Positions 7,130 through 11,876 of a DNA stretch of 64,000 bases are shown here, one piece after another (the first letter of the stretch is position 1; each line of letters starts with the position of its first letter). The DNA lies in assembly GCF_002973535.1 (NCBI RefSeq), contig NZ_PVEP01000010.1, positions 1 through 64,000 of the forward strand, read 5' to 3'. The position numbers were made by a program, and so were the translations under genes. Origin of the DNA: Albidovulum denitrificans. GTDB taxonomy: Bacteria > Pseudomonadota > Alphaproteobacteria > Rhodobacterales > Rhodobacteraceae. The notes below the pieces were generated by a model, which worked only from the letters and a program-made list of their open reading frames with translations, had not been told where the DNA came from and ran no database searches.

Positions 7130-9193
<2,064 letters not shown>

Positions 9194-9216: not shown

Positions 9217-9232
9217 TGTTCAGCGCTGAACA
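9217..9232. promoter_or_regulatory. 16-bp palindrome in the sulfate-activation gene promoter
   Basis: TGTTCAGCGCTGAACA reads identically on both strands and lies 24 bp upstream of the GTG start of the HTH-fused enzyme. It is inside an otherwise AT-richer stretch suited to a promoter. A winged-helix dimer would be expected to bind such a site, so autoregulation by the fused HTH domain is the simplest reading. Binding is an inference. Confidence 0.65.
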
Positions 9233-9394
9233 TATCTCACGGAAAGCCTGAGAAAGAAAGGGCTGCGTGCCTATTGTACCCGTTGCGGCCGGAAGTGACC
9301 CGGCTGCAACAGGACTGTTTTGGGATATGGGGTTAAGTGGGCAAGGCCGGGCGCGGCCAGCCTGCCGGTGGGGGCGATGCCTCTGGCGGCTGGA

Positions 9395-11876
<2,482 letters not shown>

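Follow-up and report, generated by a model that had tools for sequence, protein, structure and literature searches.

Several enzymes are known to control transcription as well as to catalyze a reaction. In Escherichia coli, these trigger enzymes include BirA, NadR, PepA, PutA, and PyrH. Of these, PutA binds DNA at its own locus only, in the spacer separating putA from putP; the available text of this source names no sulfate-activating enzyme among the trigger enzymes (PMC8249747). In AerR of Rhodobacter capsulatus, an internal ribosome-binding site in the coding sequence gives rise to a short isoform, and the isoforms regulate differently (PMC6199135). Alternative initiation has also been described for plant ATP sulfurylase, where it serves localization to the plastid and the cytosol, by a mechanism that appears, from the accessible part of the paper, unrelated to the one considered below (PMC4283515). 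The wording “EPS-associated transcriptional regulator” occurs in two papers. A search of the titles and abstract openings of the open-licence literature, preprints excluded, returned no description of a fusion between a helix-turn-helix (HTH) domain, ATP sulfurylase (Sat), and APS kinase (CysC), or of its control.

Such a fusion is encoded in the window (the whole stretch of 64,000 nucleotides from Albidovulum denitrificans that was analyzed). The fused gene occupies positions 7130..9193 of the minus strand, and its long product of 687 amino acids starts from the GTG at 9193. Reading along the protein, a winged-helix DNA-binding domain (8879..9166, minus strand) is followed by an ATP sulfurylase region with the Pfam domains PUA_2 and ATP-sulfurylase (7688..8809, minus strand) and by a Pfam APS kinase domain (7211..7666, minus strand). 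The translation contains QTRNPLHRAH, which we take to be the ATP sulfurylase motif, and GLSGSGKS, presumably the APS kinase P-loop. Both enzyme domains are complete, as the protein scores 1049 bits against NF004040 (cut-off 669) and matches the Pfam families ATP-sulfurylase and APS_kinase. Throughout the 117 fused genes compared below, the frame runs across the HTH-Sat junction with no stop codon, which indicates that the long protein is under selection too. By this comparison, the fusion is in frame, and the predicted DNA-binding domain is part of the same polypeptide as the enzyme.

The winged-helix domain is related to TIGR04176 (MarR_EPS). The window protein, or its domain alone, scores 81.5 to 86.1 bits and was therefore not assigned to this equivalog family, whose curated cut-off is 88 bits, although some fused relatives exceed that value. 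An AlphaFold2 model of the domain (mean pLDDT 80.7) comprises about 100 residues and ends in one long C-terminal helix. Searching the model against the PDB with Foldseek returned mostly MarR-type proteins among the top 50 matches, with a best E-value of 3e-5 and TM scores of only about 0.5; as modeled, the fold resembles solved MarR proteins. The bifunctional ATP sulfurylase/APS kinases 2gks and 3cr8, together with the ATP sulfurylases 1i2d and 1m8p, represent the same catalytic two-domain arrangement as the fused protein. These PDB matches start at residue 140 or later of the fused protein (148 for 2gks, 270 for 3cr8), and none of the matched chains covers the N-terminal winged helix.

Like the trigger enzymes, the fused gene would encode an enzyme that also controls transcription. 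It differs from them in carrying a MarR_EPS-type winged helix on Sat-CysC and, apparently, in also having an isoform free of this DNA-binding head. We thus suggest that it may work like a trigger enzyme, as an analogy and not as a claim of membership. The two-start design resembles that of AerR, whose host is a related bacterium. AerR, however, is a cobalamin-binding co-regulator of CrtJ rather than an enzyme, its internal start codon is CTG, and its isoforms were demonstrated on blots, whereas those of the fused gene are predicted from sequence (PMC6199135, as far as its available text goes).

A preliminary description of this DNA had pointed out a perfect 16-bp palindrome before the GTG start of the fused gene. 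Checking the window sequence confirmed TGTTCAGCGCTGAACA at positions 9217-9232, with a gap of 23 bases to the GTG. Symmetry by itself proves nothing here, since four perfect 16-bp palindromes were observed in the window where a simple composition model expects 2.2. The pattern TGTTCAG-N2-CTGAACA, which the preliminary description had proposed for a genome-wide search, occurs at one place in the window when up to two mismatches are allowed (chance mean 0.05), and without mismatches it has a single copy in the 4.1-Mb genome. This pattern nevertheless proved too narrow: the middle four bases vary among relatives, so that it would miss most orthologous operators, matching those of some species only, and the GCGC of the window lies outside the shared signal. 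The conserved part is the arms, and the genome searches were therefore repeated with the core GTTCA-N4-TGAAC (9218-9231, within the palindrome). We accordingly write the putative operator as TGTTCA-GCGC-TGAACA (9217..9232, minus strand); its arms are kept before every fused gene examined and are missing before the unfused ones examined. It is this conservation, and not the symmetry, that raises the operator above chance.

We compared the regions upstream of fused and unfused sat genes in a family sample of 198 genomes, 186 of which had a match to the fused protein. The match extends through the HTH domain in 36 genomes; in G032, which brings the number of fused genes to 37, a contig end truncates the gene. 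The core lies upstream of each of these 37 HTH-Sat-CysC fusions, with perfect arms in 36 and with nine of the ten arm positions in one (L024); in one genome (G190), the operator is split over two contigs and is perfect when read on the neighboring contig. Of 3700 shuffles of the fused upstream regions, 17 reached nine arm matches and none reached ten. By contrast, at least nine arm matches were found upstream of none of 52 unfused sat genes, of which five reach eight; these genes were not a random sample but came from the top of the match list and from genomes with long open frames. Besides the fused ones, as many as 149 of the 198 genomes have some match, several of them to the kinase part only. 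Two further unfused genes (G005 and G001) also lack the operator in the 222 and 228 upstream bases available. A looser pattern gave three matches in the 52 unfused upstream regions, all of them GCTCGACGCNGAGC, and in two of these regions (L120 and L123) the sequence places this match within the terminal part of the reductase gene that lies upstream. One gene, of G034, had initially suggested an HTH remnant through a weak alignment (L111 and L134); reading through it gave neither an HTH nor an operator, and L111 was left out of the unfused count since L134 covers the same gene.

The same picture emerged from a second collection, in which the best 80 of 297 relatives were analyzed as named loci. 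The operator is present in 80 of 80, with perfect arms in 79 and nine of ten in L301, where it sits somewhat further upstream than in the other named loci. The nearest named relatives found in this collection are Defluviimonas strains, and the named strains with the fusion include Shimia, Leisingera, Phaeobacter italicus, Roseovarius, and Sulfitobacter undariae. Eleven loci occur both among the 80 and among the 37 (identity over 740 bases), and the counts overstate independence because the loci are related. Conservation among orthologous promoters, on which the preliminary description had made its proposal depend, is thus seen in both collections.

To place these observations on a tree, we used the catalytic parts of 36 fused and 23 unfused proteins. 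The fusion is patchy, with nine state changes, four of which are forced by well-supported branches, on a tree of low resolution, in which 7 of 56 inner branches are well supported and the bootstrap had not converged. The operator changes together with the fusion in all four well-supported independent pairs; the sign test gives p = 0.125, the best attainable, and the fused rows entered this test as operator-bearing on the strength of the upstream scan. The window gene groups with unfused relatives, implying that losses, gains, or transfers affected head and operator jointly on more than one occasion. A single origin of the fusion was considered and set aside, as the tree needs nine changes, among which losses and gene transfer are indistinguishable.

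Which protein binds the operator? Stand-alone MarR_EPS genes of the same family provided a further view. A GNTC-N6-GANC palindrome lies upstream of 28 of 35 such genes, compared with 2% of shuffles, and no operator was detectable upstream of the other seven. We then related arms to recognition helices in 49 stand-alone genes, 35 from the family and 14 from outside. With an SxGxxN helix, GTTC arms were seen 11 times and GCTC arms never; with SxGxxH, GCTC arms were seen 11 times and GTTC arms three times (Fisher p = 1e-4, related proteins not being independent); the family alone gives 10:0 and 10:3 (p = 4e-4). The second arm base thus tracks the sixth position of the recognition helix, Asn or His. 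Outside this two-by-two table fall genes with mixed arms (2), GATC arms (2), a Tyr helix (3), no helix match (2), and no such site (15); both GATC-armed proteins are SFGGVN paralogues of one genome, G012. A first count had covered 40 genes, with five of the 14 from outside the family chosen after a scan for arm matches, and the two-by-two table is the same with all 49. The fused proteins have Asn in 117 of 117 (116 by script, L285 by eye), together with GTTC arms.

Taken together, the presence of the operator with fused genes and with stand-alone relatives, and its covariation with the helix, indicate that the fused HTH domain is very probably the binder. The proposal of the preliminary description that the site serves autoregulation by the fused domain gains strong support from this comparison, which ties the operator to the fusion and places it at the gene's own promoter. 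The palindrome and the long C-terminal helix would fit a dimer on the operator. A helix-to-operator code for MarR_EPS proteins is possible on the same grounds. Outside the family, at least nine of ten arm matches occur in one of 13 assessable MarR_EPS upstream regions, three genes have GTTCA arms with a five-base spacer, and eight Asn-type proteins have no such site upstream; hence the operator class is not claimed for the whole MarR_EPS protein family. The spacer variant, GTTCA-N5-TGAAC, was observed in L042, L052, L307, L308, and L319, and it extends to further families of the same phylum.

In principle, the palindrome could instead be bound in trans by another regulator, either a sulfur regulator or a stand-alone MarR_EPS protein, leaving the fused HTH to another job. 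Stand-alone MarR_EPS proteins over the cut-off do occur in four fused genomes (G142, G161, G165, and G190), and since the stand-alone gene of G142 also has GTTC arms, cross-talk may be possible there. Yet in the other three of these genomes the stand-alone arms are GCTC, and 33 of the 37 fused genomes, including that of the window, have no stand-alone MarR_EPS protein over the cut-off. Moreover, the operator is missing where the HTH is absent, and no other intergenic place recurs, as described below. We therefore regard a trans-acting binder as improbable.

The position of the operator relative to the promoter is also informative. Two bases upstream of the core lies a -10-like element, TGAGAT in the window (9234..9239, minus strand) and TGNNAT in relatives, where its four defined columns hold T in 66, G in 68, A in 74, and T in 73 of the 80 named loci, and T in 26, G in 28, A in 31, and T in 31 of 32 loci in the family set. 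This is a weak match to a -10 element, and no good -35 candidate was identified upstream of the fused genes. If it is a -10 element, transcription would start inside the palindrome, and overlap with the start site is a classical place for a repressor. The operator lies 13-24 bases from the start codon in 79 of the 80 named loci, with a mode of 19 (start codons picked by script). Such closeness raises another option, namely that the transcribed palindrome forms a 5'-leader hairpin through which translation is controlled: RNA copies of inverted repeats can adopt such structures, and this one lies about 20 nucleotides ahead of the start codon. The arms, however, are near-invariant rather than covarying, the loop would consist of the four variable bases, the arm letters track the recognition helix in the protein family, and the -10-like element points to a transcription start within the palindrome itself, all of which render a hairpin very improbable.

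In some species, the promoter carries more than one site. A second operator copy with nine or ten arm matches precedes the first by 32-34 or 47-49 bases in nine of the 37 family loci and by 26-32 bases in four of the 80 named loci (60 bases searched); the window has none. The second copies suggest cooperative binding in those species. The nine family loci are L010, L011, L020, L023, L024, L029, L030, L131, and L133, and the second copy often reads GTTCT-N4-TGAAC. Directly upstream of the fused gene, the minus-strand gene at 9395-10363 is, judging by its motifs, presumably thioredoxin-reductase-like, an arrangement also seen in several relatives; thioredoxin serves PAPS reduction.

The preliminary description had further anticipated that other copies of the palindrome would define a sulfur-assimilation or exopolysaccharide regulon. 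This expectation was not borne out: other copies are few, lie mostly in genes, and give no recurring intergenic target. In its own genome, the core has one other match, GTTCANNNNTGAAC, against one in a reversed-pattern control, and it scored as coding in a codon model trained on sat genes. Of five sites with one mismatch, four scored as coding, among them L213 at the very beginning of a frame, and the fifth, L210, is intergenic. A scan of the 36 fused genomes for GTTCANNNNTGAACA gave 41 further places, of which 32 scored as coding and nine as non-coding; 42 had been fetched initially, and L207 was removed as the split sat promoter of G190. The nine non-coding places have no neighboring gene in common within the 1.4-kb stretches compared, and one of them, L206, is probably inside an ABC-transporter gene. 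Those places that do recur do so because they lie inside conserved proteins. A wider regulon would accord with the name of the nearest family of the domain, which is called EPS-associated, and with the 67 places in the own genome at up to two mismatches, compared with 22 for the reversed pattern; given the coding context of the closer matches and the lack of a recurrent intergenic target, we consider it highly unlikely, and the predicted circuit looks single-target.

Comparing the fused genes also revealed a putative second translation start, which was absent from the preliminary description. The linker after the HTH is variable, and what is kept in it is one Arg and, in nearly all rows, a Met. 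In the window, the rare AGG codon of this Arg (R117) forms, with the next base, an internal Shine-Dalgarno AGGA (8842..8845, minus strand), followed after 8 nucleotides by an ATG (M121; 8831..8833, minus strand) at the place where unfused Sat proteins begin. The Arg codon is AGG in 116 of 117 fused genes and CGG in L013. Elsewhere in the 80 named genes, 4028 Arg codons were counted, of which 30 are AGG; this figure includes the linker codons of L273 and L281, which escaped recognition by the script. At three other conserved Arg positions, AGG is used in 2 of 117, 0 of 116, and 1 of 114 genes. An A follows the Arg codon in 116 of 117 genes, and AGGA stands exactly 8 bases ahead of the start codon in 115 of 117; the two exceptions keep this spacing, with AGGG in L303 and CGGA in L013. 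The start codon itself is ATG in 101 genes, GTG in 14, and TTG in two (n = 117).

Predicted pairing with the 16S tail is consistent with this picture. The mean energy is -4.6 kcal/mol at the internal start (79 of 80 named genes), compared with -2.3 kcal/mol at the long start and -2.7 kcal/mol at 1141 other in-frame ATGs. A value of -4 kcal/mol is attained by a quarter of these other ATGs as well. As judged by these alignments, the fused genes have a conserved in-frame internal start with its own Shine-Dalgarno. Since the long start has no clear Shine-Dalgarno, the short product is probably made in the larger amount. The simplest reading is that two proteins are made from one mRNA with the short one favored, and one mRNA would thus probably yield both a repressor-enzyme and a plain enzyme.

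One might instead suppose that only the long protein is made and that AGGA and ATG are a relic left over from an unfused sat ancestor, especially as unfused Sat proteins start at about the same residue, making the internal start an old start place. A relic should decay, yet the AGG codon, the A that follows it, and, in 117 of 117 genes, the distance to the start codon are retained, and Met has been replaced only by the start codons GTG and TTG. We therefore consider a relic unlikely.

Our preferred reading, which we hold to be highly likely on the strength of these genome comparisons, is that the gene's own winged helix recognizes the palindrome as its operator, that the long product represses its own promoter as a dimer, and that the same mRNA also gives a short Sat-CysC protein. 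An HTH-Sat-CysC dimer would sit on the operator with one recognition helix per GTTCA arm. Once bound, it would cover the transcription start and would repress, rather than activate, its own promoter by occlusion. The internal ribosome-binding site on the same mRNA would direct synthesis of short Sat-CysC without the HTH, and this short form would be the source of most of the enzyme activity. The result would be a one-gene feedback in which the enzyme-repressor reports the amount of enzyme or of enzyme-bound product (APS/PAPS). A winged-helix domain of about 100 residues leaves little room for a ligand pocket, so that a signal, if any, would probably come through the enzyme domains; that the ligand state of the Sat and CysC domains gates DNA binding is the least certain element of the proposal. 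It is conceivable, though in our judgment somewhat more likely wrong than right, that the gene acts as a homeostat: in mixed oligomers of the isoforms with and without the repressor head, the isoform ratio given by the two ribosome-binding sites and the APS/PAPS state of the catalytic domains would together determine if the operator meets two heads, and synthesis would be titrated to sulfur demand with no separate regulator.

Many bacteria of the Rhodobacter family would thus probably use one gene to make the enzyme both in plain form and as an enzyme-repressor that keeps its own synthesis in check. If this is correct, sulfate activation would join the enzymes that have a DNA-binding head, this head would be coupled to a conserved head-free isoform, and MarR_EPS proteins would follow a simple helix-to-operator code. 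In named, isolated strains, the predicted circuit is specified exactly, with operator, binding domain, recognition residue, and internal start each defined to the base.

The stand-alone MarR_EPS regulators share with the fused domain a common winged-helix sequence, the recognition helix, and the class of palindromic operator, and the window's domain falls just under the cut-off of their family. Unlike the fused domain, they are encoded on their own elsewhere in the genome. In the family, their operator classes GTTC, GCTC, and GATC go with the types of recognition helix (upstream regions of L037, L215, and L038-L054). Most of them also have a leader motif: GCGG(T/C)AGC occurs within 60 bases upstream of the start in 31 of the 35 stand-alone family genes, compared with 0.3% of shuffles (L034-L063 and L215-L219; for example, L043 and L059). 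We take this motif to resemble the ops element that recruits RfaH. In the available text of a published survey, 18% of rfaH genes are placed in Alphaproteobacteria, and one RfaH cluster is associated with a helix-turn-helix neighbor (PMC7593976).
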